A DNA stretch of 49,194 nucleotides from a virus (IMGVR_UViG_3300045957_000036:1-49194); one strand, 5' to 3'. Counted from the first letter of the stretch, positions 4,428 to 45,223 are shown. Program-made: numbers and translations. Notes: generated by a model not told the origin, from the letters alone.

Positions 4428-4454
4428 GACCCAGGCCGAGATGGCCAGCGGGTT

Positions 4455-4685: not shown

Positions 4686-4692
4686 ACGGCGG

Positions 4693-6454: not shown

Positions 6455-6461
6455 ACCGACC

Positions 6462-6489
6462 ATCGTAGCATCCTGACCTACACAGTCAA
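6462..6489 (-). promoter_or_regulatory. Leaderless promoter with GTRG-N9-CTAC repeat
   Basis: -35 TTGACT (plus 6484-6489), extended -10 TGCTACGAT (-10 hexamer at 6462-6467), 7 nt to ATG 6454. Inverted repeat GTAG-N9-CTAC at 6465-6481. Confidence 0.75.
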
Positions 6490-6512
6490 CATGTGAGGGC
6501 AGTAGACGCGTC

Positions 6513-8884: not shown

Positions 8885-9402
8885 GTCATGGGCGGTGGTC
8901 TCGGATCGTACTCCGCGGCCCCCAGCATCGCCCCGAACAGACCGAGCACCCCGATCCGGGTCCACGGCGGCCCCCCGCCCGGCCACACCCCGGCCGCCAC
9001 CGCCGTCAGGCACAGCACCCACCAGCCGAGCCCGGCCACGAGCAACAGCCCATCGGCCAACGGGTCGTGCGGCTGCTCGCCCTCCTCCCGGACCAGCACC
9101 ACCCGCCCGAACGCCCCCATGCGCTGCTGGGAGTGCAACAGCTCCCGTTCGCCGCCAGGCAGCTTCCAGGCGACCAGGAGACCCTGAGGGGCGATCCAGG
9201 CCAGGACCAGGAGCCGCCACCCGAGAGACCAGCCACCGCCGTCCCACCCGGCCAGGAGCCCGCCCGCGGCGACGACGGCCCCGATCGACGCGGCCACCCG
9301 CCTGCTCCCGCCGAACAGTTCCCGGATGATCCAATGGGCGACGAGGACCGGCCACCACAGCCAGCACGCCGCTCGGAGAGCTACACCCGCATCCTGCGTC
9401 AA
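8881..9402 (-). CDS. Polytopic membrane protein
   Basis: 173 aa, about five hydrophobic helices (for example 10-27, 36-52, 62-82, 115-138, 146-161). The apparent TTG start at 9402 overlaps the stop of the capsid-protease-like gene (TTGA), a coupling also used at 33221. It follows head genes, so it may be expressed with them. Holin, assembly or superinfection-exclusion roles are all possible and unproven. Confidence 0.6.
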   Translation of the reverse strand: MTQDAGVALRAACWLWWPVLVAHWIIRELFGGSRRVAASIGAVVAAGGLLAGWDGGGWSLGWRLLVLAWIAPQGLLVAWKLPGGERELLHSQQRMGAFGRVVLVREEGEQPHDPLADGLLLVAGLGWWVLCLTAVAAGVWPGGGPPWTRIGVLGLFGAMLGAAEYDPRPPPMT

Positions 9403-11690
9403 CCGCTACAGCACGAACCGCCGCAGTCGCACGACTCCCCAGCGAGGCGGGCCAGGACAGCCTCCTTGCGGGCGGTCAGCACAGGAGACTCGGTCGCTGC
9501 GGCAAGACGACCGAGGTGCTCCGGGACGGGCTGATCCAGGGCAGACAGAGCGGCCACCTTACGGGCGGCTAGGGCCGACAGGGCCGGGGTCCAGTTGGTT
9601 CCCACGATGGCCTGGTCGTCGACCGGGACCGTGCTGTCGTCCAGCTCGGGCCCGCCGGAAGCGACAAGACCGAGGTTGAACCCCGAGACGGGGACGGCCA
9701 GGACCCCGACGACACCTCGGCCGCCGGTCGCGGTGGCCCTAGGCCGCCAGTCGGGGGACAGGTCAGCGGCCCGGAGCTTCACGAGCTGCTCGTCGGTGAC
9801 GCCCGGCATGATCCAGCCACGCAGCTGGAGACCGTGGGCGTCCTCGAACAGTCGGGCCTGGGCCACGAGGGAGCCGGTGTCGGCGTAGTGCGCCGCAGCG
9901 TCAGACGCCTTGGCTCGGAGCGACGGGTGGACGGTGTCCATCACGATCGGCCCGGCCTTCACCCTGGAGCCGTCGTCGCAGAGCACTTCCCCGGCGACCT
10001 GCGGGCCCTGGAACGAGTCGTAGTCCAGGCCGCGGGGCACTTCGACGCAGCGGCCCGAGAACCCGATGTGGCACGAGCCCCACATGGCGATGTGCCCGTG
10101 GATCTGCCGGAACCCGTTGTCGTCGGGCTCGCCGATCTCGAACGGGGTCGGCCGGTCGTAGTGCGCGGCCTCGAACCATTCGAGCGGCGGGCAGGCCCCA
10201 CCGGCAGCGACCACGGGATCGTCGCTGTCGTCGAGGTACCGGATCCCGCCCTTCGGGGCCATCTCGGTGACCGGCTCGCCTTCGTCGTTGCGGATCAGGA
10301 GCCCTTCCTGGCGGGTCCCGTCGGTGTCGACGTGGAGGTAGTGGCCGTACTGCTCCATGATCTCCCCAGCGGTCAGGCCGGGGCCGACATCGGTGGCCCG
10401 CCACCCGAGGCTGGTGGTGACCCCGTCGGGCCCGGTGCTGGCGGCCTGCTCGTACCAGATCAGCACCGGCCGCCCTGCCCGAGCGTCCGCCAGGGCCGCC
10501 TCGACCTCGGCCTGCAGCTCATCGTCGTCGGCGGGGATCTCGACCAGGTGGGCGGCCAGGTCATCGCCGGTCTCGTCCGGGTACTGGCCCTCGGCCAGCT
10601 CCGAGATCGACGCCCACTGGATCTGCTCGACGTGCTCCTGCCCGTCCGGCCCGGAAGCGACGAACCCGGCCTCGATGGTCTCGATCGGGATGATGACCGT
10701 CAGCTTCAGGTCCGACGGGAGCGCACCGGCCGAAGCGACCAGAGCGTCCGGCTGGATCTCGGAGACGTCCCCGACGATCTGGAGGCGGGCGCCCTCGAAC
10801 GCTGGGATCGACACGAGCGTCGCGGCCCCGATGCGGGCGGCGAGGATCACGAGGAGCCCGTCGCCGAGCAAGATCTCGATCAGCTCGTCCGGGTCGTCCG
10901 GCAGGTCCAACACGACCTCGGTCAGATCAACGCTGACGCCCTGCTTGGTGCCCTCCGACATCCGGCGGCGAGCGTTCTGCCCGTCCTCGCCGGAGTCGAA
11001 GAACCCCTCACCACGGATCTCGTTGCCGTCCCGGAAGATGTTCGTGATCGGCCCCGCGGCCACGGCACCGTCATGGCCGGGCTGCGACAGAAGCTGGTCC
11101 TGGAGCGTGATCGGCAGGTCCCGCCACGTGAGCGCCCCGGCCCGGATCAGACGCCGATCCGAGGTTTCGATCTCCTCCAGGGTGAGGACACCGGCCCACT
11201 CGGGGCGGCGGCCCTCGAACTCATTGAACGTGGCCACGCTGGCCCACTCGTCGGCCACGAGGGGGCGCTGCTGGAACGTCGGCAGCGGGCGGCGGCCTTC
11301 GACGATGGCCAGGGCCGTGTCGCGCTGGTCGGCCTCGGCGTCGAGCCGGAGCAGCCCGTCACCGGTCGACTCGTCGGCGGCCTCCTCCTCGTTGTGGTTC
11401 CGGACGTAGGTCGCGGCCCACGCCTTCCCGTCGTCCCCGCCGAGCATCTCCCACGCGATCCGCTCAGCGGTCGGCTCGCTGGTGGCGAAGAACCCGTCGG
11501 TGCCGCGCAGGTGCTCGTGGTTCTCGAACCAGCGGTTCACCCGCATGATCGTGGCCGGGCGCTTGTTCGACGCGACGGTCCGAGCGAACGTCACCATCCA
11601 CTGCTCGCACAGCGTCCGGCGGTCGGTGTACTCCTGGTGCCAGTCCAGCGCCTGGCGGCACGCAGCGATGATCTTGTCGGTCGGCTTCAC
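9399..11690 (-). CDS. Capsid maturation protease-like head protein
   Basis: 763 aa; GTG 11690 with GGAG 7 nt upstream. It lies between the MuF-like gene and the capsid, where actinophages encode the capsid maturation protease. The central part (about 120-290) has HK97-protease-like features: a beta-rich block with ITLQDQLLSQPGHDGAVAAG, the substrate-loop-like EIRGEGFFDS and SEGTKQGVSVDL. It continues into IPAFEGARL. The C-terminal 400 residues include VIIPIETIEAGF and HIAMWGSCHIGFSGRCVEVP, and end in the Cys-rich tail CDCGGSCCSG. The long N-terminal and C-terminal extensions are larger than usual. The catalytic residues are not assigned with certainty. Confidence 0.65.
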   Translation of the reverse strand: MKPTDKIIAACRQALDWHQEYTDRRTLCEQWMVTFARTVASNKRPATIMRVNRWFENHEHLRGTDGFFATSEPTAERIAWEMLGGDDGKAWAATYVRNHNEEEAADESTGDGLLRLDAEADQRDTALAIVEGRRPLPTFQQRPLVADEWASVATFNEFEGRRPEWAGVLTLEEIETSDRRLIRAGALTWRDLPITLQDQLLSQPGHDGAVAAGPITNIFRDGNEIRGEGFFDSGEDGQNARRRMSEGTKQGVSVDLTEVVLDLPDDPDELIEILLGDGLLVILAARIGAATLVSIPAFEGARLQIVGDVSEIQPDALVASAGALPSDLKLTVIIPIETIEAGFVASGPDGQEHVEQIQWASISELAEGQYPDETGDDLAAHLVEIPADDDELQAEVEAALADARAGRPVLIWYEQAASTGPDGVTTSLGWRATDVGPGLTAGEIMEQYGHYLHVDTDGTRQEGLLIRNDEGEPVTEMAPKGGIRYLDDSDDPVVAAGGACPPLEWFEAAHYDRPTPFEIGEPDDNGFRQIHGHIAMWGSCHIGFSGRCVEVPRGLDYDSFQGPQVAGEVLCDDGSRVKAGPIVMDTVHPSLRAKASDAAAHYADTGSLVAQARLFEDAHGLQLRGWIMPGVTDEQLVKLRAADLSPDWRPRATATGGRGVVGVLAVPVSGFNLGLVASGGPELDDSTVPVDDQAIVGTNWTPALSALAARKVAALSALDQPVPEHLGRLAAATESPVLTARKEAVLARLAGESCDCGGSCCSG

Positions 11691-11754: not shown

Positions 11755-12504
11755 TCAGTCGACGCCGACGACGTAGAACGAGCACCGGCAGTTCCCTCTC
11801 ATGTTCAGCGACAACGATGCGGCCCCCGGGTAGTCCGCCTCCTCGCCGCCCACCTCGAACAGCTGGTCCAGCGGCACCTCCTGACCGGACGCCTCCCGAT
11901 GCTCCGGGCGGGTCCGCCCGTCGGGGGTGGCCAGCCAGATCTTCCTGGCTCTCGGCCCGGCCGCAGCCCGCGCCCCGATCATCGCCGCGCCGTTCCCGGC
12001 GGACACCATCTCCGTCCTGGCCACCAGCTCCGCAGCCCGAGGGCGCATGTCCCCAGCCACGAGCATCTTCGCTGTCCGGTCGATCGACGCCCCATCCCGG
12101 AACGCGTCGGTCAACGTGGTCTGGACGTGAAGTCGGGCCTCGTCGCCGTACGCCTCGATCTCGGCCAGGTGCTCGGCCACGATCTCGGCCACGAACGGCT
12201 GCTGGATCCGGGCCGTCAGGCCAACACGGCGCATCTCGTCAACGACGAACTCGCCGATCAGCTCCTCGGAGTCGGCCACCGCCGCGGCCCACAGGGCCTC
12301 GTCGAACATGCCGGTCGGGTCCACCTCCGGCGTCGGGAGATCCCCGACCGCCATCGACACCCGACGGCGGGCCTGGGCCATGAACCGGGTCTGCGCCTGG
12401 TGGCCGATCTCGTCGATCGCGTCACCGATGACAGGGCCGACCACATCCGCCGCTGCCACCGCTCGACGGCGCCGAGCGTGCCCCTTCCCCCTGCTGGTCG
12501 TCAC
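11755..12504 (-). CDS. Phage minor head protein (MuF/F-like)
   Basis: 249 aa starting MTTSRGKGHARRRR. The C-terminal part carries the Mu gpF signature: TEMVSAGN, then KIWLATPDGRTRPEHREASGQ, a proline-glycine segment YPGAAS, and NCRCSFYV at the end. This family joins portal and capsid during head assembly and may hold ejected DNA. Placement immediately after the portal, with a 4-nt ATGA-type overlap, fits. Confidence 0.85.
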   Translation of the reverse strand: MTTSRGKGHARRRRAVAAADVVGPVIGDAIDEIGHQAQTRFMAQARRRVSMAVGDLPTPEVDPTGMFDEALWAAAVADSEELIGEFVVDEMRRVGLTARIQQPFVAEIVAEHLAEIEAYGDEARLHVQTTLTDAFRDGASIDRTAKMLVAGDMRPRAAELVARTEMVSAGNGAAMIGARAAAGPRARKIWLATPDGRTRPEHREASGQEVPLDQLFEVGGEEADYPGAASLSLNMRGNCRCSFYVVGVD

Positions 12505-14684
12505 GCAGTGACCAGTTCGAGGTGGCGGGCCACAGACTCCTCCACGATCCCGTCGGGGAAGTACAGGCCGTCGGGAAGCTGACGGAGCGGCCTCTGGTAG
12601 GCGGCCAGGTACAACTCATCGAGCTTGGCCACGACCTCCGAAGCGACCCGGTGTGCTGCGTCGTCGGCGTTCAGGTGAGACATGCGGAGGGTGTCCTCGA
12701 AGTACGACCGGAGCCACGTCACCGTCAGCCCCTGGAACTGGACCCACGGGCGGGCCACGACCTTCGACGGGTCGACCGCCATCTTCCGCCAGTCTGAAGC
12801 CGGGATCGCAGGGAGAACCTCCAGCTTGGCCAGGGCCCGCACCCGGTCCTTCGTGTCGAGCGAGTCCCGCGGGATCCGTTGGATCACCAGCCCTGCGGCC
12901 CGTTCCACGGTGGCCTTCAGCCGTTCGGAGGCGGCCACCCTGACCCGTTCCTGGATGCGGGCCAGCTCCTCCGGGCCGGTCGTCACCGGGGTCTCGGTCC
13001 CGCCGGGCGCGGTGTCGGCCTCCTCCTGGGCGATGGCGTCCTCGTTCGCTCCCTCTTCACCGGCCTCAGCCGGGTCCTCGTCCGGGCCTTCGCCGTCCTC
13101 GGCCACGATCGCTGACGGCTGGAGCAGCGCGTCGGCGGCGTCGGGGTCCATGCCCATCTCGACGAGGACGTCCTTCGTGAGGCCGAGCGCAGCCAGGAAC
13201 GGCTTGTTCGTGACCGACGCAGCCAGGGCGATGGCTTCGACGTACCGGCGGAACCGCTCCTCGTCCTTCGGCTTGTCCTTGTCGGGGTCGAACCCGTGAG
13301 CCCGGAGGCGGGCGTCGTCCGACAGGACCCGGTCCTTCCACAGCGAGTCGGCGGAAGCGGCGGCGTCGGACCGGGACAGGAGAGAGCTGGCGTCGAACTC
13401 GAACTCGAACCGCTCGGCCCTGGCCTCGTCCCACCCTTCGGCGATCATCAGGAACCGCCGCAGGTAGGCGATCGTCAGGAACTGGACGATCCGGTCGCCT
13501 GCCGGGATGACGTGCTTCTCGATGAAGTCCTTCGAGACCGTGGCACCGGTCCAGTGGTTGAGGGACCCCATCCCGGTCATCGTCTCCGGCGGCACATCCA
13601 CGCCAGTGGCGATCCGCCCGAGGGCGTTCTCCCGGAGGTTGATGATCCGCTCCGGGTCCATCCGCTCGGCGTCGAGCTTCACGAGCTTCAGGGCCTTGTC
13701 GAGCACCTCAGCCGGGGCGTTCAACAGGAGCGGCACCAGCGAAGCGGCCGACTGTCGGTCCTCGATCGGGGCCGACAGGTGCTCGGTCAGCACCTCCAGG
13801 AGCGGGTCGACCTCTTCGTCGTCATCGACCGACTCGTCCTCGGTCCCCGCCGGGAGAGACAGCTCGTCGGCCACGAGCAGGATGCCAGCCGGGATGTGCG
13901 ACTTGATGGTCGCCTCGATCAGCTGCGTGAGGAGGACAACCTCACGGCACGCCGCCGCCACCCGCCGCATCGAGGAGGTGGCATCACCGGAGTGCCGGGG
14001 GTCGCGGCGGTGGTACCGGGAGATGTACGTGTCTTCGTCCAGCTCCTCGACCTTCGAGTCGCCGGTCCCGCCGTGCTGACCGGACTGGATCGCGTGACGA
14101 CGACGGGCCTTCTTCCCCGACTGGCGGTCCTCGACGACCTCCATGATCGACAGGAACTCCCAGGCGATCTGGCCCTTCCGGTCCGTCTTGGTGTCGATCC
14201 CCTTCCCGGGCGGGATCTTGTCGAGCGGGGTGCCGACCAGGTGCCCCTCACCGGCGATGAAGTCCGCCTCGGCGATCGACCGGATGATGGCCTTGTGGTC
14301 ACCGGCCGGGCCCCGCAGAGCCAGGAGGGCCTTCTCGGCGACGGCCCGGTCGCCTTCGATGATGTCGTCGCCCTCGTCGTTCTTCTTCGGGACGATGACG
14401 TCGCCGGTCTCCAGGTCCCGCTCGACGATCTTGATGTCCGCCCTGGCGACCACGTCAGCGATCTGGCCGGTCACGTACCCGACTTCGCCGATGAAGTCGA
14501 CGTGGCCGTACGCCTCCTCCTGCCACTTCTGGCGTTCCAGCTTCCGGGGTTCCTGGTCCTTGATCTTCCGGGTCGCGGCGGTCGACAGCTGCCCCACACC
14601 AGTGGGGACCTCGATCGCCAGCGCAGCCCGAGCCCGCTTGACCTTGCGGGTCGAGCGTGGGGGAGTGGTGGTTGCGGCGGCCAT
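12501..14684 (-). CDS. Phage portal protein
   Basis: 727 aa, larger than typical HK97 portals (about 400-500). The N terminus is basic (RSTRKVKRARAALAIE), then the clip/stem region with GYVTGQIADVVARADIKIVER. Around residue 380 is PPETMTGMGSLNHWTGA, a motif common in actinophage portals, followed by HVIPAGDRIVQFLTIAYLRRF. From about 540 there is an acidic low-complexity linker and a helical tail. The last 4 nt overlap the MuF-like gene. Terminase, its packaging partner, is about 28 kb away. Confidence 0.88.
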   Translation of the reverse strand: MAAATTTPPRSTRKVKRARAALAIEVPTGVGQLSTAATRKIKDQEPRKLERQKWQEEAYGHVDFIGEVGYVTGQIADVVARADIKIVERDLETGDVIVPKKNDEGDDIIEGDRAVAEKALLALRGPAGDHKAIIRSIAEADFIAGEGHLVGTPLDKIPPGKGIDTKTDRKGQIAWEFLSIMEVVEDRQSGKKARRRHAIQSGQHGGTGDSKVEELDEDTYISRYHRRDPRHSGDATSSMRRVAAACREVVLLTQLIEATIKSHIPAGILLVADELSLPAGTEDESVDDDEEVDPLLEVLTEHLSAPIEDRQSAASLVPLLLNAPAEVLDKALKLVKLDAERMDPERIINLRENALGRIATGVDVPPETMTGMGSLNHWTGATVSKDFIEKHVIPAGDRIVQFLTIAYLRRFLMIAEGWDEARAERFEFEFDASSLLSRSDAAASADSLWKDRVLSDDARLRAHGFDPDKDKPKDEERFRRYVEAIALAASVTNKPFLAALGLTKDVLVEMGMDPDAADALLQPSAIVAEDGEGPDEDPAEAGEEGANEDAIAQEEADTAPGGTETPVTTGPEELARIQERVRVAASERLKATVERAAGLVIQRIPRDSLDTKDRVRALAKLEVLPAIPASDWRKMAVDPSKVVARPWVQFQGLTVTWLRSYFEDTLRMSHLNADDAAHRVASEVVAKLDELYLAAYQRPLRQLPDGLYFPDGIVEESVARHLELVTA

Positions 14685-21557: not shown

Positions 21558-21569
21558 CACGTGGGGACT

Positions 21570-21599
21570 GGCCCCGGGGAGGGAAGGAACCCCGGGGCC
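21570..21599 (-). terminator. Terminator-like hairpin after the Rep gene
   Basis: Perfect 10-bp GGCCCCGGGG/CCCCGGGGCC stem with 10-nt loop, between the Rep stop at 21619 and the 21521 promoter. Confidence 0.6.
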
Positions 21600-21618
21600 G
21601 TCCACCTGTCACGTCGAA

Positions 21619-22023
21619 TCAAGCAGCGGCGGCCCCTTCCTCGACCGACCCATCGTCGGCCGCCTCGCCATCGTCCTCGACCGCGGCCACCGGCTTCGGG
21701 GCCACCGTCTTGCCCTGCCGGGCGTCGTTGATCTCCAGGGCCATCTTCAGGAGCGGACCCTGGATGCCGCCCATCTCGGCCATCTGCTGGACGATCACGG
21801 TCTCCCAGCGGGACTGGAGGGCGTCGTCGCCGAAGTCGATCACGGCCTCGTGCAGGTCCCCGGCCGCGGCCCGCAGGTCCCGGGTCGACTTGGCCCGAGA
21901 GTCGGAGTCGACGACGGCGCCGAGCAGCTCCTTGCGGTGCTTCTCGTTCTCGGCCTGGTCCAGGGTCATCTCCAGGATCCGGCGTCGGCCGTCATCGGCC
22001 GGACTGCTGTTGGTGTTTCGCAT
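21619..22023 (-). CDS. Possible internal in-frame product of the Rep gene
   Basis: ATG 22023 (Rep codon 452) has a strong AAGGAG 7 nt upstream, in a stretch (ADQPTTRSNAMRNTN) that reads like a spacer. The 134-aa product MRNTNSSPADDGRRR is helical and ends in an acidic Ala/Glu/Asp tail. Either Rep is a fusion of two once-separate genes, or both full-length and short forms are made. Confidence 0.45.
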   Translation of the reverse strand: MRNTNSSPADDGRRRILEMTLDQAENEKHRKELLGAVVDSDSRAKSTRDLRAAAGDLHEAVIDFGDDALQSRWETVIVQQMAEMGGIQGPLLKMALEINDARQGKTVAPKPVAAVEDDGEAADDGSVEEGAAAA

Positions 22024-23376
22024 GGCATTGCTCCTTGTGGTTGGTTGGTCTGCTTGCGATCGTGCGGCCGAAGGGTGCTCGGCCAGGTCAGACGGTCGAC
22101 CCAGGATCGGGCAGCCGTCCTCGGTGTGCCGTTCGACGGCCACCGGTTCGTCCAAGTGCATCTCGGCCACGGCCGCGGCCCCGATGGGGTCGCTGACGGC
22201 CAGCTCGATGACGTCGCCCAACGTCGGGGAGCCCTGCCGCTGGTGCAGCTCCAGTAGGGCGGCCAGCTGAGGGTGAATCCACACCCTGGCCCCGCCCTCC
22301 CCCGGAGTCGACCACGGGTCCGGCATGTCGACCGGGCCGTACAAGCGGCGGACGTGCTGGAACCCCGACGGGATCCGCCTCCGGTTGGCCAACGAGGTGA
22401 GGTACTCCGTGAAGACAGCCAGGGCCTGCGTGTTCCCCCTGTGGGCCGCAGGAGCGACCTGAGAGAACACTTCCAGCGGCCCGTCCCCAAGAGGGCCCGA
22501 CGGGTCGAGCGGGCCGCCAGGGTCCATGGGACCGTCCCACCGGCCAGGGCCAGGCTCCGGGCCCCGGTCGCCGTCGAGCGGGTCCTGGTCGCCGAGCGGG
22601 TCGTCCTTCGGGGCCCGGCACTTCGGGCAGCCCTTGTGCTTCGGGTGACGGCAGTCGTTCTTCGGGTGGAGCGGGTCGTCCGGCTTGCAGTACTTCCAGA
22701 ACCCGAGCGAGGTGAACACCAGCTCGGAGTGCGCCGACCGGGGCGACGTCCGCCGCCCGGTGACCTTCTCGGCGTTGATCCGCCACGCCACCCGAACCTG
22801 GTCCCCGAACCAGTCGGCGTCGGCCGGGTCCCCGACGCAGAGCCACGCCACGTGCAGGTGCGGGTGCCAGCCGTGCTCCTTCGACCACAGGATCTGCAGC
22901 ACCGTGATCGCCGTCAGCACCTTCGCCCGACGGCGAGCGGCCCGGAACAGGCGCTGGTCCTTCAAGCGCCGCCACGACCCGAACAGCTGCCCGGTGACCA
23001 GGTCGAGCGAGTCGAGCTTCCGGTGAGGGACCGTCAACGCCGAGTGGACGATCCACCCGCCCGCGGCCTGATGCCTGCGGAGGTACTCGGCGCCCTCCTG
23101 CTCGGCGAGCTGCCACTGCATCGGGGAACACCAGGCGCACCGCAACGGCGACCGGCAGGCGACGAGCTGGCCGCCGACCATCCGCCCGGCCTCGGTCAGG
23201 AGCAGGCCGGGCCCGTCTTCCTGCCCGCCGATCGGGAGCCCGCACTGGGCCAACGTCGTGCAGTCCGGGTGGTCTCGGCACAGGCGACGGCCGAGGGCCC
23301 GCATCGCTGCTCTCGTGCCAGGCCCGAACCCGGTATCGGGCCTCGTCCTGGTCCCAACGGTCGCTGTGGTCGTCAC
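21619..23376 (-). CDS. HUH replication initiator (RepSA/Rep_1-like) with C-terminal extension
   Basis: 585 aa from GTG 23376. CRSPLRCAWCSP (about 74-85) is a Cys-rich entry motif typical of actinobacterial rolling-circle Reps. IVHSALTVPHRK (about 109-120) fits Rep motif 1, and HPHLHVAWL (171-179) is a clear HUH metal motif. Downstream come a Cys/His cluster around KYCKPDD to KGCPKCRAP, a Gly/Pro/Asp linker (260-300) and EYLTSLANRRR. The catalytic Tyr is not assigned. From Met452 a separate helical domain follows, with its own ribosome binding site upstream of that Met. Rep probably nicks the element's origin to start rolling-circle replication. It ends the FtsK/Tra operon, as in AICEs. Confidence 0.8.
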   Translation of the reverse strand: MTTTATVGTRTRPDTGFGPGTRAAMRALGRRLCRDHPDCTTLAQCGLPIGGQEDGPGLLLTEAGRMVGGQLVACRSPLRCAWCSPMQWQLAEQEGAEYLRRHQAAGGWIVHSALTVPHRKLDSLDLVTGQLFGSWRRLKDQRLFRAARRRAKVLTAITVLQILWSKEHGWHPHLHVAWLCVGDPADADWFGDQVRVAWRINAEKVTGRRTSPRSAHSELVFTSLGFWKYCKPDDPLHPKNDCRHPKHKGCPKCRAPKDDPLGDQDPLDGDRGPEPGPGRWDGPMDPGGPLDPSGPLGDGPLEVFSQVAPAAHRGNTQALAVFTEYLTSLANRRRIPSGFQHVRRLYGPVDMPDPWSTPGEGGARVWIHPQLAALLELHQRQGSPTLGDVIELAVSDPIGAAAVAEMHLDEPVAVERHTEDGCPILGRPSDLAEHPSAARSQADQPTTRSNAMRNTNSSPADDGRRRILEMTLDQAENEKHRKELLGAVVDSDSRAKSTRDLRAAAGDLHEAVIDFGDDALQSRWETVIVQQMAEMGGIQGPLLKMALEINDARQGKTVAPKPVAAVEDDGEAADDGSVEEGAAAA

Positions 23377-23397
23377 GTCGCATCGTCCATCACCGGC

Positions 23398-23634
23398 TCA
23401 GGTGAGCTTGAACTTGTCGAGCAGGGAACGGGGCTCGCCCCCGAAGGGCTTCACCTCGCGGCCCGAGTGGTCACCGAACTCTCGGACCTCTCGGGAGTCG
23501 TCGAGCGGGGGCCGGAACGTCCCGAAGATCGACAGCGACTCGGACGTCTTGGCCCAGAACCCGGCGCCCTCCGTGCGCTCCTCCCAGATCCCCATCTTCT
23601 CCTTGTCGGTGAACTCGCCACGGCTGTTCGGCAT
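23398..23634 (-). CDS. Small hypothetical protein upstream of Rep
   Basis: 78 aa starting MPNSRGEFTDKEKMG. Charged, no Cys, no membrane segment. Start joined to the previous gene as TGATG; 21 nt before the Rep start. Part of the Tra-Rep operon; unknown function. Confidence 0.58.
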   Translation of the reverse strand: MPNSRGEFTDKEKMGIWEERTEGAGFWAKTSESLSIFGTFRPPLDDSREVREFGDHSGREVKPFGGEPRSLLDKFKLT

Positions 23635-23849
23635 CAGTCGACCTCCATCGATTCCTGCTCGGCCATCCACCGATCCGACTCGGCCTCTTCCCGCCAGAAC
23701 TCGGCCGACCCGGGTTCGCCTTCGGCCGCGGCCTGAGCGGCCATCGCCCCTGCCCACGAAGCGTGACGCCGGTAGAACGACGCCTCGGCCTCGCCGGGCT
23801 TGGGCCACAGCGGCTCCTTCCACGCCAGAAACATGTCCCCACTGCTCAC
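23634..23849 (-). CDS. Small hypothetical protein
   Basis: 71 aa; GTG 23849 coupled as GTGA (an ATG five codons later is possible). WKEPLWPKPGEAEASFYRR and a helical acidic tail (FWREEAESDRWMAEQ). Coupled on both sides within the Tra-Rep operon. Not recognised. Confidence 0.55.
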   Translation of the reverse strand: MSSGDMFLAWKEPLWPKPGEAEASFYRRHASWAGAMAAQAAAEGEPGSAEFWREEAESDRWMAEQESMEVD

Positions 23850-24082
23850 GAGAACCACCCCCGGTCGCGGCCCTCGGTGAACGCAGCCGCGGCCTGACCT
23901 TCCGGGCCCGGGATGTCGGAGCGCCCGGCGCCCTTCATGTCCCAGAACCGGCCCGAGTCGTCCTGAGCCCACACCGACCAGCCGGTGCCGTCCTCGTGAC
24001 CGAGGATCTCCAGCGGAGACCCGTCGGCGCCGACAGCCCGCATCTGGGTGCCACCCCACTCGGCCTCGTCCTCAGCGGCCAC
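23846..24082 (-). CDS. Small acidic hypothetical protein
   Basis: 78 aa from GTG 24082. MAAEDEAEWGGTQMRA, then a WSVWAQDDSGRFWDM strand-rich core. Coupled to its downstream neighbour as GTGA and 3 nt from the upstream stop. Unknown. Confidence 0.55.
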   Translation of the reverse strand: MAAEDEAEWGGTQMRAVGADGSPLEILGHEDGTGWSVWAQDDSGRFWDMKGAGRSDIPGPEGQAAAAFTEGRDRGWFS

Positions 24083-24085
24083 CGG

Positions 24086-24334
24086 TCAGTCCTCCCACCA
24101 TTCGGCATCGACGATGTCGCCGCCCGCGCCGCTCCCGGCCCCGTCGCCGGTGACGTCGGACAGGACCCACGCGCCGCCGGTGCCGTCGTCCCAGATCGAC
24201 GGGTCGTCGTTGTTCGAGCCGGGCTCGACCCACACCGACTGGACGGTCTGCACGGTCCCACCGGAGTCGATGGTCTCCCAGTACGACTGCACGGCATCGG
24301 CCGCTGCGGTGTTCCCGCCGTGCGGCTGACTCAT
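24086..24334 (-). CDS. Small acidic hypothetical protein
   Basis: 82 aa starting MSQPHGGNTAAADAVQ. Low-complexity, Asp/Gly-rich (VTGDGAGSGAGGDIVDAEW). ATG coupled to the upstream stop. Possibly disordered. Part of the Tra-Rep operon. Confidence 0.52.
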   Translation of the reverse strand: MSQPHGGNTAAADAVQSYWETIDSGGTVQTVQSVWVEPGSNNDDPSIWDDGTGGAWVLSDVTGDGAGSGAGGDIVDAEWWED

Positions 24335-24534
24335 GACGTCAGGTTGGTGAACGACTCGCCAACCCCTCCGACGACCTCGCCTCCGAAGTCGAGGATCGAG
24401 CCGGTCAGCTCGCCCCCGCCGAACGCCAGGTCGACACCGAGGATGGCCATGGGGAGCGTGCGGGAGAGGTTCAAGTCCTCCCACATGTCGTCCAACGTGA
24501 CCATCTCGAACATGCCTTTGTCGCTGATGCTCAT
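24331..24534 (-). CDS. Small hypothetical protein with strong ribosome binding site
   Basis: 67 aa starting MSISDKGMFEMVTLDD. AAGGAGGTG lies about 6 nt upstream of ATG 24534, one of the best Shine-Dalgarno sites in the window, suggesting high translation. The C-terminal half is Gly-rich and mildly hydrophobic (LGVDLAFGGGELTGSIL). About 90 nt with no gene separate it from the GIY-YIG-like gene. Confidence 0.55.
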   Translation of the reverse strand: MSISDKGMFEMVTLDDMWEDLNLSRTLPMAILGVDLAFGGGELTGSILDFGGEVVGGVGESFTNLTS

Positions 24535-24625
24535 CGCAGAGCACCTCCTTCCGCGCCGGTCAGGGCGCGCTCGTGCCCGCCCCGCGGCCTGATGCCCAGG
24601 GGTCGGGGGTCTGCTTGCGTTGCTG

Positions 24626-25183
24626 CTACAGCAGGACGGGGATCGCCGCGGCCAGCCCGGCCACGACAGCGGCTGCGGCCACCAGGAACGGCACCGCTTC
24701 CGACACCGCCTGCAGAGCGGTGGCCAGGGGAGGGTCGCCGACGTAGACCGGCGAGTGACCGCCCATCCCGTCGGGCCCGTAGATCGCCTGGATCAGCGAG
24801 ATCAGCTCGGCCCCGGCGTTCCCGTTGTGATGATGGTTCGCCAGGGTGCCGTACCGGTCCCGGACCTCGTCGTACTCCCCGATGGCCTTGGCCTCGATCT
24901 TCGCGGCCTGCCACTTGAACATCGGCTTCCCGCCGTTCAACAGCACGGTCTCCGTGAGGGAGTGATCTACGAGCGGCCACCACAGCGACGTGGGGGGCCG
25001 GTCGGCCTCCTCCTGCCATCGCTCGGTGAACGGCCGCATCGTGATCCCCACGTACAGGCGGGAGCCCCGCTGGATCCCGAGGTTGGAGTCCCCGACGGCG
25101 AACAGCCGGTACATCCCGAACACTGCGAACGTCTCGTCGCCTACAGCTTCCGGACCCATCGGGGTTGACTGCTCCGTGTCCAT
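24626..25183 (-). CDS. GIY-YIG-like nuclease with C-terminal membrane anchor
   Basis: 185 aa from ATG 25183 (a GTG three codons upstream is possible). GMYRLFAV (23-30) and LYVGITMRPFTERW (43-56) match the GIY and YIG halves with the conserved Arg; Glu97 in KIEAKAI is a candidate metal ligand. After about 145 the sequence becomes hydrophobic (AVSEAVPFLVAAAAVVAGLA), predicting a C-terminal membrane anchor. In the Tra-Rep operon it could process transferred DNA or act against competing elements; this is inference. It could also be an inactive relative. Confidence 0.62.
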   Translation of the reverse strand: MDTEQSTPMGPEAVGDETFAVFGMYRLFAVGDSNLGIQRGSRLYVGITMRPFTERWQEEADRPPTSLWWPLVDHSLTETVLLNGGKPMFKWQAAKIEAKAIGEYDEVRDRYGTLANHHHNGNAGAELISLIQAIYGPDGMGGHSPVYVGDPPLATALQAVSEAVPFLVAAAAVVAGLAAAIPVLL

Positions 25184-25222
25184 TGATCTCACCGTCGTTG
25201 CTCACCGTACTACAAGCCCGGG

Positions 25223-26329
25223 TCACGACGCCTCCCGGGTGCCCCACAGCGGCTGCGTGGGGTCGGCGGCGGCCGGGTTCTCCGGCCAGGACGGGTCGAA
25301 CGGCTCGGCCGGTTCGGTGGTCGGGTCGGGCCCGGGGCGGACGTGGGGCCGGAGCCCGGACGCCCGCTCCTGCTCGGACCTGATCCACGACAGCGGCGAG
25401 CGGAGCATGTCCTTCCAGCCCCGCCCGGGGCCGCGGCCTGGGCCGCCGAACCCTTCGACGTAGTCGCGGGGCTTGAAGTGGATCCGCATGAACGCCGTGG
25501 TCGCGAAGTTGCTGCCGGACCGGTCGGGCCAGATCAGCTCGATCGAGTTCGTGGAGTCGGACACCTGGGGGAACTGGGCCGACAGCTCGTCGAGGACGTC
25601 GAGCAGCTCCTGGAGGCCACGGCCGGGGGTGCGGAACGCCCGCACGGTGACAGTGTGCCCGTCGTACGAAGCGATGGGCCACAGGCCCGGGGCTTCGAGG
25701 ATCGGCCGGTTGGTGGCCACCTCGGACACGGTGTCCTCCGGCTGGGTGTCGAACGACTGCACCTTCGGGGACTTCCCAGCCAGGATCGCCCACTGGACAG
25801 GCAGCTCCCGCCTGAAGCTGGCGTACTGCCGTCGGACCCACCACTGCTCCATGACCATCCCGAGGCGGATGTCGGCCACCCACAGGACAGGGACGAGGAC
25901 GTGGACGAGGATCATGACGATCGGGTGGAGCGTCCACCAGGCAGCGAAGTACCCGGCGACGGTGACGAACGCTCGGGCGATCTTCCCGGTGGCGATCTGG
26001 AAGAACGCCGACACGTTGTCGCGCTTGTAGACGCCGTAGGCGGCCAGCAGACCGAGGAGCACGGCCCCGATCCGGGACTTCGGGATGGCCGACCAGAACG
26101 TGGCCGCCACTCCGAAGAGGGCCCCGAAGGGGACGAGCATCCACAGCTGGATGACGGGGATGCCGTAGACGACGAGCCAGGTCAGCCCGATGGCGGACAT
26201 GACGAGCGGCCAGCCGTACCCGAACCAGTAGACCCACCGGAGGAACAGGCCGAGGCGGGCGCCGTGGGGGAACCGGCGGGCCAGCGCAGCGAAGTAGTGC
26301 CGGTTCGAGGTGATCGACCCGGGCCTCAT
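25223..26329 (-). CDS. Polytopic membrane protein of the transfer module
   Basis: 368 aa starting MRPGSITSNRHYF. About five or six hydrophobic helices in residues 20-170 (for example LGLFLRWVYWFGYGW, IGLTWLVVYGIPVIQLW, IGAVLLGLLAAYGVY). The cytoplasmic C-terminal half has RAFRTPGRGLQELLDVLDEL and FMRIHFKPRDYVEGFG. Adjacent to the FtsK/Tra translocase, like Spd-type membrane proteins of actinobacterial conjugative plasmids. The Spd comparison rests on topology and context, not sequence. Confidence 0.65.
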   Translation of the reverse strand: MRPGSITSNRHYFAALARRFPHGARLGLFLRWVYWFGYGWPLVMSAIGLTWLVVYGIPVIQLWMLVPFGALFGVAATFWSAIPKSRIGAVLLGLLAAYGVYKRDNVSAFFQIATGKIARAFVTVAGYFAAWWTLHPIVMILVHVLVPVLWVADIRLGMVMEQWWVRRQYASFRRELPVQWAILAGKSPKVQSFDTQPEDTVSEVATNRPILEAPGLWPIASYDGHTVTVRAFRTPGRGLQELLDVLDELSAQFPQVSDSTNSIELIWPDRSGSNFATTAFMRIHFKPRDYVEGFGGPGRGPGRGWKDMLRSPLSWIRSEQERASGLRPHVRPGPDPTTEPAEPFDPSWPENPAAADPTQPLWGTREAS

Positions 26330-26736
26330 GACCGGTGCCTCCGATCGTGCTCGGAGAGGGCGTTGGCCAGGATGAGCCCGAACCCGCAGATGAGGAGCGC
26401 AGCGGCTGCGATCCCTGCGATGAGGGGCGGGGTCCCGAAGCTGATCGTGACAGCCAGCAGAGCGTTGGCCAGGATCACGATGACGATCGAGACGAGCAGC
26501 GGGAACCGGCGCCGCCGGGGGGCTCGGACGGCGACGGGCTGGCGGGGCTCGGCCCGCAGCAGGACGGGATCGGTGAACGGCGCCGGACGCTCCGACACCC
26601 ACTGCTCGGGGACCGGGCCGGTGCGAGGCACAGGCCGGGCCGCCGGGCGGGCGACGGGCAGGTCGACACCGCTCGTGTCGAACACGGCGTCGGGGCGGAC
26701 GATCGGATGGTCGGTCGGGTGGTGGTGGTTGGTCAT
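26326..26736 (-). CDS. Two-helix membrane protein of the transfer module
   Basis: 136 aa starting MTNHHHPTDHPIV, with GGAG 6 nt upstream of ATG 26736. A Pro/Arg-rich N-terminal region (residues 1-70) precedes two hydrophobic helices (about 80-102 and 106-126). It lies between the FtsK gene and the polytopic membrane protein, with ATGA coupling to the latter. Probably a transfer-complex accessory (inferred). Confidence 0.62.
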   Translation of the reverse strand: MTNHHHPTDHPIVRPDAVFDTSGVDLPVARPAARPVPRTGPVPEQWVSERPAPFTDPVLLRAEPRQPVAVRAPRRRRFPLLVSIVIVILANALLAVTISFGTPPLIAGIAAAALLICGFGLILANALSEHDRRHRS

Positions 26737-26747
26737 GGTCGGCTCCT

Positions 26748-28616
26748 TCAGGCCAGGGTCGTCACGACGACGACGGCGAACACGAGCACCACGCCAGCGA
26801 GGCACGGTGCGATGATGAGACCGGGGGTCACTTCCCTCCGGGCGGTGACCGGCTTCGGAGTCCGGTCGGCGTAGTACGACAGGGCGAACACGTCGGCCGA
26901 GGCCCCGATGAGGCCGCAGACAGCGCACGCCCATCCGAGGGCACCGCCGAGCCATGGGGCGGCCACGAGGAACGCCACGAACAGCGGGATGCACGCCTTC
27001 AGGATCCGGCGCTGGGCGACGGTGAGCGGCTCCCGGCCTCCGTTGGTCCACTCGGCCGGAGCGGCGATCGGGTCGGCCAGCACCTGCTCGACCGGTGGCG
27101 GCCCGTGGGTAGCGGGCTCGCCGGGGACGACAGGGTGGGAGGGCTCGATCAGCTCGGGCGGCGTCATCGCCGGGTCGAGGGAATGCAGCTCAGCGTCCAC
27201 CCGGTCCGGGACCAGCTCCACGTTCGGGCGGGCATCGAGCGACGGGGGGTCGACCCACACGTCACCCGGGTCGTGCTCGCCGTCGGCCTCGACAACGGTC
27301 AGCACCGGGGGGACGTCATCGTTGCGGCCCTCGTCGAGCCACGCCTCCCGAGCCTCCTGCTCGAAGTAGGCCAGCTGCACCGGGGTGTCATCGACGACAC
27401 CGCCGAACTCGTTGTCCGGGGGCTTAGCGCCACGGGCCACGGCCCGGCCCCGCTTCGTCGCCGGGTTCGACAGCACCGCAGGGATCGCCGTGCTGGTCGA
27501 GTTCTCGAACACGACCGGGAACCACGTCGAGGCCAGGGCCCGCACCGCGACGACCAGGCCCATGTTCCGCAGGGCCTTCCCGCCGCCGACCGCGTCGACA
27601 TTCGGGTTCTGGGTCATGTCGATCAGGTGATGCCGGACCTTCGCGCCCTTCGCTGCGTGCTTGGCGTGCAACGCCCGGATCTGCTTCTTGCACTCCAGCG
27701 CGACCTCGGAATCAACGGCCCCGTCGGGCTCGAAGAAGTCCCCGCACTCGTCGGTGATGATGAGCGTCGGACGGCCGATCCACTGGACCCCGTCGCGCTC
27801 CATCCCCCACGTGTTGCACCGATGCTGGGCCTTCTCGCCCTCCCGCCGGTGCATCTCCTCGTCCAACGACTGCCAGACCGCAGCCGCCCGCTTGTAGTCC
27901 TCGTCGGTCGAGCCGAGCACCACGTCCTCGGGGCACAGCTCAGCGAACTTCAGGAACGTCGGGTCGTCGACCGTCGGGGAGATGATGACGATCCGCCAGC
28001 CCTTCTTCCACGCCTGAGCCGCGATCGCAGCAGCGGTCTCCGACTTACCGGACCGGGTCTTCCCGACCAGCAGCGCGTGCGGGTTCTCGACCGACGTGTC
28101 CCAGATCAGATCGGAGCCCTCCGACAGGCGACCCAGGTAGAACTGGTCGGCCGACGACGGCACCCTGGTCAGGTCGAAGATCTCCAGCTCGGGGAGCCGG
28201 AAGTACGACAGCACGACCCGCATGACGGGCATGTCACCGAGGCCCCGCTCACGCAGCAGCGGAGCGACCTGCTCGGGTGGCGCCATCAACGTCACCTGCG
28301 CCTCGGCGCCCTTCGACGACTTCAGGAAGTCCGGGATCTCAGTCCTCGGCTGCTGAGCGTCGAACGCCCCCGGCAGCCCGATGTCGAAGTACTCGACCTG
28401 CCGGTCCTCGTCCTTCCACCACCGCAGCAACGGCGGCACGTAGAACGTGCCCCGCTCGGCCGGGAGCACCTTCTTCATCCGGGAGCACCAGTCCGGCCAC
28501 TCGTACAGCATCCACTCCCACGCCGTCGCCCGATCAGACGGGAGAGCCCGCTGCTTCGGGTGGACCAGCTCGCCCAGCTCGAACTGGGTCAGCCCCGGCG
28601 AGTCATGACTGCTCAT
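26748..28616 (-). CDS. FtsK/SpoIIIE-like DNA translocase (Tra-type)
   Basis: 622 aa from ATG 28616 (MSSHDSPGLTQFEL). Walker A GKTRSGKS at 185-192 and Walker B LIITDECGDFF at 285-295. DMTQNPNVDAVGG after 330 fits the sensor region of the FtsK/TraB family. In Streptomyces plasmids and AICEs such proteins move double-stranded DNA between mycelial cells. Unusually, hydrophobic helices lie at the C terminus (about 540-575 and 595-620), not the N terminus. The gene heads a coupled operon with membrane proteins and Rep. It could also support particle-independent spread. Confidence 0.85.
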   Translation of the reverse strand: MSSHDSPGLTQFELGELVHPKQRALPSDRATAWEWMLYEWPDWCSRMKKVLPAERGTFYVPPLLRWWKDEDRQVEYFDIGLPGAFDAQQPRTEIPDFLKSSKGAEAQVTLMAPPEQVAPLLRERGLGDMPVMRVVLSYFRLPELEIFDLTRVPSSADQFYLGRLSEGSDLIWDTSVENPHALLVGKTRSGKSETAAAIAAQAWKKGWRIVIISPTVDDPTFLKFAELCPEDVVLGSTDEDYKRAAAVWQSLDEEMHRREGEKAQHRCNTWGMERDGVQWIGRPTLIITDECGDFFEPDGAVDSEVALECKKQIRALHAKHAAKGAKVRHHLIDMTQNPNVDAVGGGKALRNMGLVVAVRALASTWFPVVFENSTSTAIPAVLSNPATKRGRAVARGAKPPDNEFGGVVDDTPVQLAYFEQEAREAWLDEGRNDDVPPVLTVVEADGEHDPGDVWVDPPSLDARPNVELVPDRVDAELHSLDPAMTPPELIEPSHPVVPGEPATHGPPPVEQVLADPIAAPAEWTNGGREPLTVAQRRILKACIPLFVAFLVAAPWLGGALGWACAVCGLIGASADVFALSYYADRTPKPVTARREVTPGLIIAPCLAGVVLVFAVVVVTTLA

Positions 28617-28936
28617 CGCAGAGCCTCGATCTTCACGACCAGCTCCCCCGCACGAGCCGCACGCGACTTCAGCGCACCGACCAAGAACTCCATCGCCTGA
28701 CGCAACGCCACCGAATCCCGATCCGTCGCATCCACGAGCAGCGGCGCCCCGTGCAGCAACTGAGCCCCGACCTCGGGGCCAACATCGAACGCAGCGGCCA
28801 GCAACTCCGGCCCCGTCATCCGCCGACCGGTCATCGCCTCGACCAACTCGTCGAGCGCATCCCGGTACCGAACCGCCTCCGAATGCGCCAGATCGAGGCA
28901 CACCGTGCGGTCGAGATCAGTGGTGGTGGTCGTCAT
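28613..28936 (-). CDS. Small helical hypothetical protein before FtsK
   Basis: 107 aa starting MTTTTTDLDRTVCLDL, with GGAAGGA 7 nt upstream of ATG 28936. Helical, with AVRYRDALDELVEAMTG, and a basic C terminus. First gene of the Tra-Rep operon, ATGA-coupled to FtsK. Synonymous codon choice differs from most neighbours. Unknown function. Confidence 0.6.
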   Translation of the reverse strand: MTTTTTDLDRTVCLDLAHSEAVRYRDALDELVEAMTGRRMTGPELLAAAFDVGPEVGAQLLHGAPLLVDATDRDSVALRQAMEFLVGALKSRAARAGELVVKIEALR

Positions 28937-28978
28937 GGTGGAGTCCTTCCCAGGGCCCCGACCCGTCCGGATCAGGGG

Positions 28979-29007
28979 TTGATTCACCTTGTCCCCATGA
29001 GTATACT
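28979..29007 (+). promoter_or_regulatory. Divergent promoter, TTGATT-N17-TATACT
   Basis: -35 TTGATT (28979-28984), 17-nt spacer containing GTCCCCATGAG, -10 TATACT (29002-29007). The AGTATACT palindrome also offers TATACT on the minus strand (29000-29005) for the Tra-Rep operon, with a poor -35 (TTGCAC) 17 nt away. Overlapping divergent promoters would link the two operons. Confidence 0.6.
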
Positions 29008-29012
29008 AGATC

Positions 29013-29032
29013 ATGCAAGGCCGTGCAAGACC
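29013..29032 (+). repeat. Tandem 10-bp repeats RTGCAAGRCC
   Basis: Two adjacent copies (ATGCAAGGCC, GTGCAAGACC) in phase with one helical turn, directly downstream of the divergent -10. Suited to cooperative binding by a regulator such as the DUF5753 protein; binding is inferred. Confidence 0.5.
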
Positions 29033-29296
29033 CACTCAACCACCACCCTGACACCCACCACCTGACGCACACCACCCAAACCCACCAACCCGAGCACGGA
29101 CCCCGAAACCCAAGCCCCCACGCACACTGGCCCCGGCGCGCCCAACGCAGCGCGACCCCAAGCCATCCCAAACAGTCGCCTAGGCCCGTCCGAGCAAGGT
29201 CACGCACGATGGTGTAGCGTGTGGCCTGAGATCCCACGCTTGCGTAGCATTGCAAGCAAGAGCCCGAACCACGGGCTACTGGGAAGGCAGAGACCG

Positions 29297-29557
29297 ATGT
29301 TCGAGAACACCAAGCTCATCAAGCGAGACTCCAGCTGCGTCGGAGGCGACTGCGCCGCGGTGCTGGCCGTGAACGACACCCCCGTGGCGTTCGAGCGGGC
29401 CGGAGAGCCCGGGTACCTGGTTCAGGGCCAGGTCGACCTGACCGGCGACGAACGAGAGGCCGCCCGCATGGCGTTCGAGGCCAAGGGCATCGGGCAGGCC
29501 GACACCGAGGGCATCGTGTGGGTGCCCGCCAACGTGCTCGACGAGCGCGACGACTGA
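29297..29557 (+). CDS. Small protein of DUF5753/DUF6879 regulatory operon
   Basis: 86 aa starting MFENTKLIKRDSSCVGGDC, with GGAAGG about 12 nt upstream. GDCAAVLAVNDT, a YLVQGQVDLTGDE strand and VWVPANVL match the pattern of short actinobacterial proteins commonly encoded beside DUF5753 regulators (CP.V...D....VQG, then a valine-rich end), from memory. Function unknown. Confidence 0.62.
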   Translation: MFENTKLIKRDSSCVGGDCAAVLAVNDTPVAFERAGEPGYLVQGQVDLTGDEREAARMAFEAKGIGQADTEGIVWVPANVLDERDD

Positions 29558-29569
29558 AGGAGGACCCCG

Positions 29570-30097
29570 ATGGGGCTGGAGCTGAAGGACAGGCAGGATC
29601 TGTGGTCGAGCGTCGACCGGTCCATGTTCCACTTCGAGTGCCAGCGCGACTACGGCACCGAGTCGGAGACCCTCCGGGCGTGGCTCAACGACCCGACCTC
29701 GGTCCCGTCGCTCCGTGACGCCGAGCCCGGGTTCGACGGGTGGCTCGACATGGTCGAGTCCCACGTCGCTCGGGGCGTCACGGTGTCCAGGGTCCGGGTG
29801 TACGACTGGCCGATGACCGACTACCAGCGGTTCGAGGCGCACTTCGCTCGGGAGAACCTGGAGGCCGGAGAGACGATCCGGGTGATCGACCGGCGCCAGG
29901 CCGAGCAGTACGGGATCCTCCCCGCTGCTGGGCCGTGCGACTGGTGGATCCTGGACGACTCGACCGTCCTGGTGCAGCCGTTCGTGGACGGCCGAGTCGA
30001 AGGAGCGTTCCTGATCGACGACCCGGTCCTGGTCGGCCCCTACCTGGGGTGGCGTCGGGATCTGGTCGCCGCGGCCACGGCTGTCGGCGGCAACTGA
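29570..30097 (+). CDS. DUF6879 family protein
   Basis: 175 aa with strong GAAGGAGG before ATG 29570. The signature is the VSRVRVYDWPMTDYQRFEAHF block (about 66-86), then AGETIRVIDRR, DWWILDD and VQPFVDGRVEGAFLI. DUF6879 proteins are widespread in Streptomyces beside DUF5753 helix-turn-helix proteins, and their biochemical role is not established. The stop overlaps the next start as TGATG. Confidence 0.75.
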   Translation: MGLELKDRQDLWSSVDRSMFHFECQRDYGTESETLRAWLNDPTSVPSLRDAEPGFDGWLDMVESHVARGVTVSRVRVYDWPMTDYQRFEAHFARENLEAGETIRVIDRRQAEQYGILPAAGPCDWWILDDSTVLVQPFVDGRVEGAFLIDDPVLVGPYLGWRRDLVAAATAVGGN

Positions 30098-30960
30098 TGG
30101 ACAACCCGCTGCTGACGCAGTGGCTGACGCAGCCGGGGGGCCTGGCCCGACGTCTCGCCGACATGGCAGAACGGGCCGGGCTCAACGGCGCTGACCTGGC
30201 CAACCTCGTCGGCCGGGACCCCGGGACGATCTCCCGGTACCTGAACGGCCGAGTCGTCCCACCGGTCGAGGTGATCCGGGCGTGGTGCGAGGTGTGCGAC
30301 CAGGTCGAGCAGACGCAGGTGCTGTTGGACCTGCAGGCCGAGGCCGACGCGAAGAACATCCCGTGGCGGCGCAGGGTGGCCATCGGCGTCGAGGGCACTC
30401 AGGAGGCGTTCACCGTCCTCCACCGGCGCTCCACGCTGGTGCGGATGCACTCAGGCCCGTACATCCCAGGGCCTCTCCAGACCGGGGGATATGCGGCGGC
30501 GATGCTGGAGGCGTATGCACGCTCGGTCGCTGCGCCGGTAGAGGGGATCCGGGAAGCCGTGGAGCATCGGATGGCCAGGGCCGAGCTGGTCGGCACGACT
30601 GGCCACGACTACCGGTTCGTGATCCACGAGGCCGCCCTGATCTCGGGGCCGCCGTCCCACGAGACCCTCCTGGAGCAGGCCAACCACCTGATGGCCATGC
30701 TTCCGGAGTGCGACATCAGGATCCTCCCGCTGCGGGGCGGGCTCCCCGTGGTCGGCATGTCCACGTACGCGATCTACACGATCGACGACAGCCCGTTCGT
30801 GATCGAGGAGACCACGACCGACGACCACGAGTGGCAGACCGTCACCGAGGTCCAGGCGTTCGAGGCGCACTTCGAGCGGATGACCGACGCGTGCGTCCCG
30901 GTCGAGGAGACCAGGGACGTGATCGACCTGGCCCGACGGCGCCTCGCAGCCCTCATCTGA
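30097..30960 (+). CDS. XRE-type HTH regulator with DUF5753 domain
   Basis: 287 aa. The N-terminal HTH (about 15-55) has LADMAERAGLNGADLANLVG and DPGTISRYLNGR. The DUF5753 domain follows, with HSGPYIPGPLQTGGYAAAML (about 125-144) and a basic-acidic HRMARAELV helix, then IHEAALI and ILPLRGGLPVVGMSTYAI. This family includes Scr1-type antitoxin-like regulators of Streptomyces. It is transcribed divergently from the Tra-Rep operon, so repression of transfer and replication is the most natural role (inference). Confidence 0.85.
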   Translation: MDNPLLTQWLTQPGGLARRLADMAERAGLNGADLANLVGRDPGTISRYLNGRVVPPVEVIRAWCEVCDQVEQTQVLLDLQAEADAKNIPWRRRVAIGVEGTQEAFTVLHRRSTLVRMHSGPYIPGPLQTGGYAAAMLEAYARSVAAPVEGIREAVEHRMARAELVGTTGHDYRFVIHEAALISGPPSHETLLEQANHLMAMLPECDIRILPLRGGLPVVGMSTYAIYTIDDSPFVIEETTTDDHEWQTVTEVQAFEAHFERMTDACVPVEETRDVIDLARRRLAALI

Positions 30961-44701: not shown

Positions 44702-45223
44702 TCAGTTCTGCGAGGCTTTCTCACGCCGAGCGCCGAGAAGCGGGCCGAGGGCCGTCTCGACCCCGGTCACCGACGTCCGCATCGGGCCACCGCCAGGGCC
44801 GGAGTGCTCCAGCCGCTGAGCAGCCGGACGGAAGTTCTCCGGGTCGATCATCTCCAACAACCGGGCCGCGGCCCGCCAGTCGTCCCTCGCGGCGCCACGC
44901 ATCAACGTCATCAGCTCCACCACCGAGTTGCTCCTCGCGCGCGTGAATGCCTGCACGAAATGCACGTACATGCGGTGGTTCTTGGGGACTTGTTTCATGT
45001 CGAATGGGTCGGCGTCTGGTTGTTGGTCGAGGTAGTGGCGTCCGCGGGAGAGCCAGTTGGCGAGTGCCCGGTCGGAGACGCCTGCGTATCCGGCGGCGTG
45101 GGTTTGGAAGTTCCCGATGCGGAGGGCGTCGAGGATCTTGGCGCCTTTGCTGCCTTCGGCCCATTCTCCGGTCTTGGGGTTGTAGCCGTCCGCCAGGTCG
45201 GGTCGTCGTCCTCGGGTGGCCAT
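44702..45223 (-). CDS. Small terminase subunit
   Basis: 173 aa starting MATRGRRPDLADG, with GGAG about 5 nt upstream of ATG 45223. Residues 20-60 form an HTH: SKGAKILDALRIGNFQTHAA, then AGVSDRALANWLSRGR. This recognises the pac/cos site in related systems. The central HFVQAFTRARSNSVVEL suggests the oligomerisation helix. A change in synonymous codon use (CAA, CCA, AAA, CGC early; CAG, CGG later) occurs near 44,945 within the gene. Confidence 0.8.
   Translation of the reverse strand: MATRGRRPDLADGYNPKTGEWAEGSKGAKILDALRIGNFQTHAAGYAGVSDRALANWLSRGRHYLDQQPDADPFDMKQVPKNHRMYVHFVQAFTRARSNSVVELMTLMRGAARDDWRAAARLLEMIDPENFRPAAQRLEHSGPGGGPMRTSVTGVETALGPLLGARREKASQN

Follow-up and report, generated by a model that had tools for sequence, protein, structure and literature searches.

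A plasmid-type rolling-circle replication and transfer gene block within a tailed-phage contig

Why would a tailed phage carry, between its own operons, genes for replication and DNA transfer of the kind found in actinobacterial plasmids? The question is raised by the viral contig IMGVR_UViG_3300045957_000036, whose whole stretch of 49,194 nucleotides we call the window, and in particular by its positions 21619-30960, which we call the block. A preliminary description of the block likened it to an actinomycete integrative and conjugative element (AICE) that has lost its integrase and excisionase, and suggested a phage-plasmid able to spread both as particles and by conjugation. The explanation we favour, to which we give about an even chance, is that a tailed phage took up the replication and transfer backbone of a small rolling-circle replication (RCR) plasmid of actinobacteria as one self-regulated cassette between its own operons.

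A replication and transfer block inside a phage genome

The block is contiguous and combines a HUH replication initiator (Rep) and an FtsK/Tra-type ATPase with small open reading frames (ORFs), membrane proteins and a divergent operon that encodes a DUF6879 protein and a helix-turn-helix (HTH) DUF5753 regulator (Table 1). The genes and coordinates first described for Rep, the translocase, two membrane proteins and the divergent operon hold, and by the gene calls all ORFs of the block are intact; its gene content, homology, order, location and boundaries we regard as established. Also as described, the phage structural and packaging genes lie outside it, the terminase genes on one side and the portal and major capsid genes on the other. 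The contig (83 genes by a codon-usage gene caller, nearly all on the minus strand; G+C mostly 66-73%) is clearly a tailed-phage genome by its gene content. The genome is incomplete, since no tail genes are recognised in this fragment, although the virus itself may still have them. From the regulators and the relatives, the host is probably an actinobacterium. The gene combination that characterises a phage-plasmid, head and packaging genes with a plasmid replication gene on one molecule, is thus found here on one contig.

Table 1. Positions of the features in the window, with strand and the basis of each assignment.
Feature	Position	Strand	Basis or remark
Whole stretch	1-49194		IMG/VR record classed 'linear'; 49,194 bp
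Major capsid / major head protein	1314-3173		PHROG E 9e-52
Head-maturation-like protein	9399-11690		PHROG scan
Head-morphogenesis protein	11755-12444		PHROG scan
Portal	12501-14684		PHROG E 4e-73
Phage promoter TTGACA...TGCTACGAT	21557-21528		After the hairpin
GC hairpin	21563-21600	-	Directly after Rep, before promoter of next phage operon; fold z -4.0
HUH rolling-circle Rep, 561 aa	21619-23304	-	tblastn, alignment, profile, AlphaFold2, Foldseek
Five small ORFs, 66-82 aa	23398-24534	-	Gene calls; place matches small genes between Spd and Rep in S. longwoodensis plasmid
185 aa protein	24626-25183	-	GIY-YIG-like pattern (GMY...LYVGIT); C-terminal transmembrane segment 167-185
368 aa membrane protein	25223-26329	-	Three N-terminal hydrophobic segments
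136 aa protein	26326-26736	-	Two transmembrane segments; 4-nt overlap with next gene
FtsK/Tra-type DNA translocase ATPase, 622 aa	26748-28616	-	PHROG, custom profiles, AICE FtsK homology
107 aa protein	28613-28936	-	First gene of transfer/replication operon; 4-nt overlap with ATPase gene
Divergent intergenic region, 360 bp	28937-29296		Promoter-like site 28979-29007
Divergent regulator operon	29297-30960	+	Pfam
86 aa protein		+	First in regulator operon; faintly DUF397-like by eye
DUF6879 protein	29570-30097	+	Pfam E 6.8e-40
HTH + DUF5753 regulator	30097-30960	+	Pfam E 7.8e-27; NCBIfam Sco1979-type regulator below cut-off
terL	43062-44699		PHROG E 7e-53
terS	44702-45223		

By alignment, Rep has conserved cysteines, an LTVPH motif and the HUH motif GWHPHLHV, and a profile built from 26 relatives scores it at 88 bits. 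In the AlphaFold2 (AF2) model the HUH core (residues ~65-185) has a pLDDT >90. The best Foldseek matches of this core are the Rep nuclease domains of adeno-associated virus, with parvoviral NS1 also listed, none of them at an E-value of 0.001 or better, and Pfam gives no match to Rep at E<=1. Motifs and model together point to a Rep of the RCR-plasmid type, in which motifs 1 and 2 and the HUH fold are clear and the surroundings of motif 3 irregular. By tblastn its relatives are found on small rolling-circle plasmids from hosts that include Nocardia, Bifidobacterium and Streptomyces, and in the same type of search of 50,697 phage records a related Rep appears in one Inoviridae (filamentous) phage only and in no tailed phage. 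A related Rep, together with an integrase and a possible mobilisation protein, also stands at one edge (positions 1-6501) of another IMG/VR record, 39.5 kb long and with tailed-phage genes (L077, G398:C1:1-19900).

That the sole match among the phage records is to Inoviridae, and that many Rep relatives in IMG/VR are contigs of ~5-8 kb with inovirus-like gene content, would fit a block that is a nested inovirus genome, in which small coat genes and an assembly ATPase of the pI/Zot type accompany Rep. The ATPase bears on this alternative. It consists of an N-terminal region of ~170 residues, a motor domain (residues 178-404) and C-terminal transmembrane segments predicted from hydrophobicity, with the Walker A motif GKTRSGKS near residue 184 and the Walker B motif IITDECGDFF (AF2 on the ATPase alone gives a pLDDT of 43, an unusable model). 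PHROGs match its residues 158-392 as FtsK/SpoIIIE-like (E 3.5e-6), and phmmer aligns it with an AICE FtsK at 28 bits. With a profile made from five plasmid and AICE proteins of the TraB/FtsK type the ATPase scores 40.6 bits over residues 178-404, with hhalign in agreement, whereas one made from 23 short Walker-A ATPases of the inovirus-like contigs gives 11.2 bits over the first part of the motor only; the profiles are small, the E-values come from tiny databases and some of the contigs are perhaps not inoviruses, so that only the contrast is reliable. The Walker A motif of the ATPases in those contigs lies at residues 7-72, far from its position here. By these comparisons the ATPase groups with TraB/FtsK and not with the inovirus-type ATPases, and because of the profile contrast and the Walker A position the block looks plasmid-like rather than inovirus-like. 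Coat-like genes are not recognised in it, and it shares no other gene with those contigs, bar one weak small-ORF match. With neither a pI/Zot-type ATPase nor coat proteins found in the block, we reject an inovirus origin as most improbable.

Probably one genome on both sides of the block

A second alternative is that plasmid sequence was falsely joined into a phage contig during assembly, and it gains from the fact that we have a single virus record and found no independent copy. Phage genes on both sides of the block mean that two false joins would be needed. The two flanks also share a class of promoter. Exact TGCTACNNT sites a few nucleotides before a start codon occur eight times versus 0.26 expected in shuffles, in the left flank at 4685, 6454, 8858, 17669 and 21521 and in the right flank at 36879, 42614 and 47229, with none inside the block. 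Many of them have a TTGAC(A) box ~17 nt upstream, which gives a promoter class common to both flanks, TTGACA-N17-TGCTACGNT-N6-ATG, of a leaderless type. The recurrence of TTGACA-N17-TGCTACGNT ~6-8 nt before the start codon, near matches included, implies that many phage operons may start with leaderless first genes. In codon usage the block resembles either flank as closely as the two flanks resemble one another, and there is no change across the junctions. A rare promoter class held in common and a uniform codon usage appear to speak against a simple chimera, which we consider decidedly unlikely. The two flanks look like one genome, because they share the promoter class, are indistinguishable in codon usage, and have the head genes on one side and the terminase on the other.

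The claim that the block occupies a discrete slot between phage operons is borne out by this comparison of the flanks. The strong hairpin at 21563-21600 is a candidate for both a left boundary and an insulator. To the right, the block meets a convergent phage operon. The repeats listed at the ends of the block are short and imperfect, and none brackets it as an insertion would. Pfam tyrosine and serine integrase domains (PF00589 and PF07508) are absent from the whole contig, itself a fragment, in keeping with the description of a block without integrase.

Known relatives and the likely role of the cassette

The closest organisation we find, and a better match than an AICE, is that of small rolling-circle plasmids of actinobacteria with an FtsK-Rep backbone. 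In Nocardia pYS1 (NC_013448), Bifidobacterium pB21a (NC_010930) and a S. longwoodensis plasmid (NZ_CP107818) alike, a homologous HUH Rep is preceded by an FtsK/Tra gene, and in the block too the FtsK/Tra gene lies upstream of rep in the same orientation. The order in the 9.9 kb Streptomyces plasmid of S. longwoodensis (divergent regulator, Tra, small gene, SpdB, two small genes, Rep) is much like that of the block. The block differs in lying in a phage contig, in the C-terminal membrane segments of its ATPase, in regulators of the DUF5753/DUF6879 type instead of GntR, and in membrane genes unrelated in sequence. Given the high diversity reported for Spd genes (PMC4170104), this last absence of homology is uninformative.

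AICEs of the pSAM2 type, and two that our searches found (L010 and L011), resemble the block in having an FtsK-type transfer protein, a HUH Rep and a divergent regulator. They differ in that the block has no integrase or excisionase, its Rep matches none of the RepSA, RepAM and Prim-Pol families, and its FtsK is only remotely related. The criteria used to search for AICEs are an integrase, a RepSA, RepAM or Prim-Pol protein, and FtsK_SpoIIIE (PMC3218068). By these we do not class the block as an AICE: no integrase is found on the contig fragment, there is no match to an AICE Rep family in Pfam, and the PF01580 score stays under the cut-off. Of the original comparison, then, a plasmid-type replication and transfer cassette and its gene order remain, and membership of the AICE family does not. 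'AICE-like' rests on gene order and not on marker families, and the block may act like an AICE in replication and transfer.

Among phages, one precedent comes from Streptomyces: the plasmid-phage pFP4 is reported to live and conjugate as an episome and to form particles (Chen et al. 2012, as cited by PMC4170104). PMC4170104 refers to plasmid-phages that both conjugate and make particles, so that dual spread would not be unprecedented. The tailed Bacillus phages Pavlov (Pagevirus) and Novomoskovsk (Andromedavirus) carry FtsK/SpoIIIE beside a plasmid replication gene, which their authors read as a hint of a temperate or former plasmid-prophage life (PMC4559737, PMC9658697). They differ from our contig in a Replic_Relax Rep instead of a HUH Rep, in their Bacillus hosts, and in that no Spd-like genes are noted. 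Set beside these Streptomyces and Bacillus precedents, the present case widens a theme already known so as to include HUH rolling-circle replication; what is new is a rep-tra cassette of this type in a tailed phage. The role of FtsK in the Bacillus phages is unknown (PMC4559737), and FtsK-type genes also occur in tailed phages, Mycobacterium phage WXIN among them, where no plasmid rep is annotated next to them. Both observations would suit Rep and the ATPase serving lytic growth, with Rep starting rolling-circle replication of the genome, the ATPase moving phage DNA inside the cell, and neither a plasmid state nor conjugation involved. We judge this quite unlikely, as the gene order and the regulators are plasmid-type and the search of phage records gave a related Rep in no tailed phage.

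Returning to a cassette acquired from a plasmid, its likeliest role would be extrachromosomal maintenance of the prophage, and conjugative transfer or intramycelial spread by the ATPase is possible. In the likeliest mechanism, Rep would act in the prophage state by nicking a double-strand origin that lies within the cassette or close to it; this would start rolling-circle replication and let the element persist as a plasmid, while the DUF5753/DUF6879 regulators would keep the divergent rep-tra operon repressed. Anchored at the membrane through its C-terminal segments and the adjacent membrane proteins, the FtsK-type motor would pump double-stranded DNA through septa or into mycelium in contact with the cell, in the manner of TraB. 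In Streptomyces, TraB is reported to be sufficient by itself for conjugation and to recognise 8-bp repeats, and as FtsK-type conjugation reportedly takes a single motor protein (PMC4170104), it would be among the cheapest transfer systems for a phage to gain. The fullest version, a probable DNA-modifying tailed actinophage with a rolling-circle plasmid prophage whose motor and membrane partners also carry double-stranded DNA between mycelia with no particles involved, and hence both viral and conjugative transmission, we put forward as a doubtful extension. A phage with a complete rolling-circle rep-tra cassette would make combined particle-borne and cell-to-cell transfer testable, and likewise the way in which a HUH Rep operates next to phage packaging.

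Several results weigh against a working plasmid and transfer function. In Rep motif 3, Tyr205 is present in WKYCKP, which is irregular with respect to the family YxxK, and full Rep activity is therefore not assured. The ATPase scores 13.1-13.8 bits with Pfam FtsK_SpoIIIE (PF01580), under the cut-off of 24, and no TraB-type C-terminal winged HTH or other DNA-reading domain is recognised in it. There are no clustered exact repeats in the window of the kind expected for a clt-like 8-mer cluster, though degenerate ones would escape. No terminal repeats are found at the ends of the linear fragment. No ParA is seen, and the ParB-like gene at 47302 adjoins probable DNA-modification genes. We found no relative carrying the cassette, and a related Rep and an FtsK domain are absent from eight phages and plasmids with related portals; the Rep profile recovers its positive controls.

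These structural relatives without the cassette, the irregular motif 3, the clean boundaries and separate regulation, and the lack of an exact phage-type promoter inside would be consistent with a cassette that is a passenger rather than a phage function. No flanking repeats clearly mark an insertion, every ORF is intact and the codon usage equals that of the phage, and we hold a passenger to be unlikely, though to be kept in mind.

The head genes of the contig are related to those of actinobacterial plasmids of 58-104 kb, which are probable phage-plasmids. Streptomyces pS1D4-14.2 and a plasmid of Micromonospora sp. NBC_00855 share with it a similar arrangement of related genes for the portal, head maturation and the capsid region; they differ from the contig in having integrases, no matching Rep and no FtsK domain. 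No close relatives emerged when IMG/VR was scanned with one protein at a time (FtsK, Rep, portal, terL or capsid), the portal and FtsK alignments being too divergent for scanning, and a DNA-level search of the block against plasmids and phages gave nothing. An Arthrobacter match was judged to be due to chance.

Other genes of the block and the right end of the contig

Four of the five small ORFs (all but 24331-24534) have no match in Pfam or PHROGs. The 185 aa protein has no Pfam match at E<=1, and its putative assignment as a nuclease is by eye only. For the 368 aa membrane protein we found no family or homologue, and a weak match in one other genome (G139) was dismissed as chance; it may be Spd-like, or else a membrane subunit split off from the translocase. 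The divergent intergenic region is a candidate control and origin region, and a tract within it (29010-29180) is strongly C/A-rich and G-poor.

At the right end of the contig (45381-49194) we observe genes for PIG-L-like, WbqC-like, MgsA_C-like ATPase, ParB-like, TET-associated glycosyltransferase (TAGT) and methyltransferase proteins. This cluster is probably a phage DNA hypermodification locus, cut by the end of the contig.

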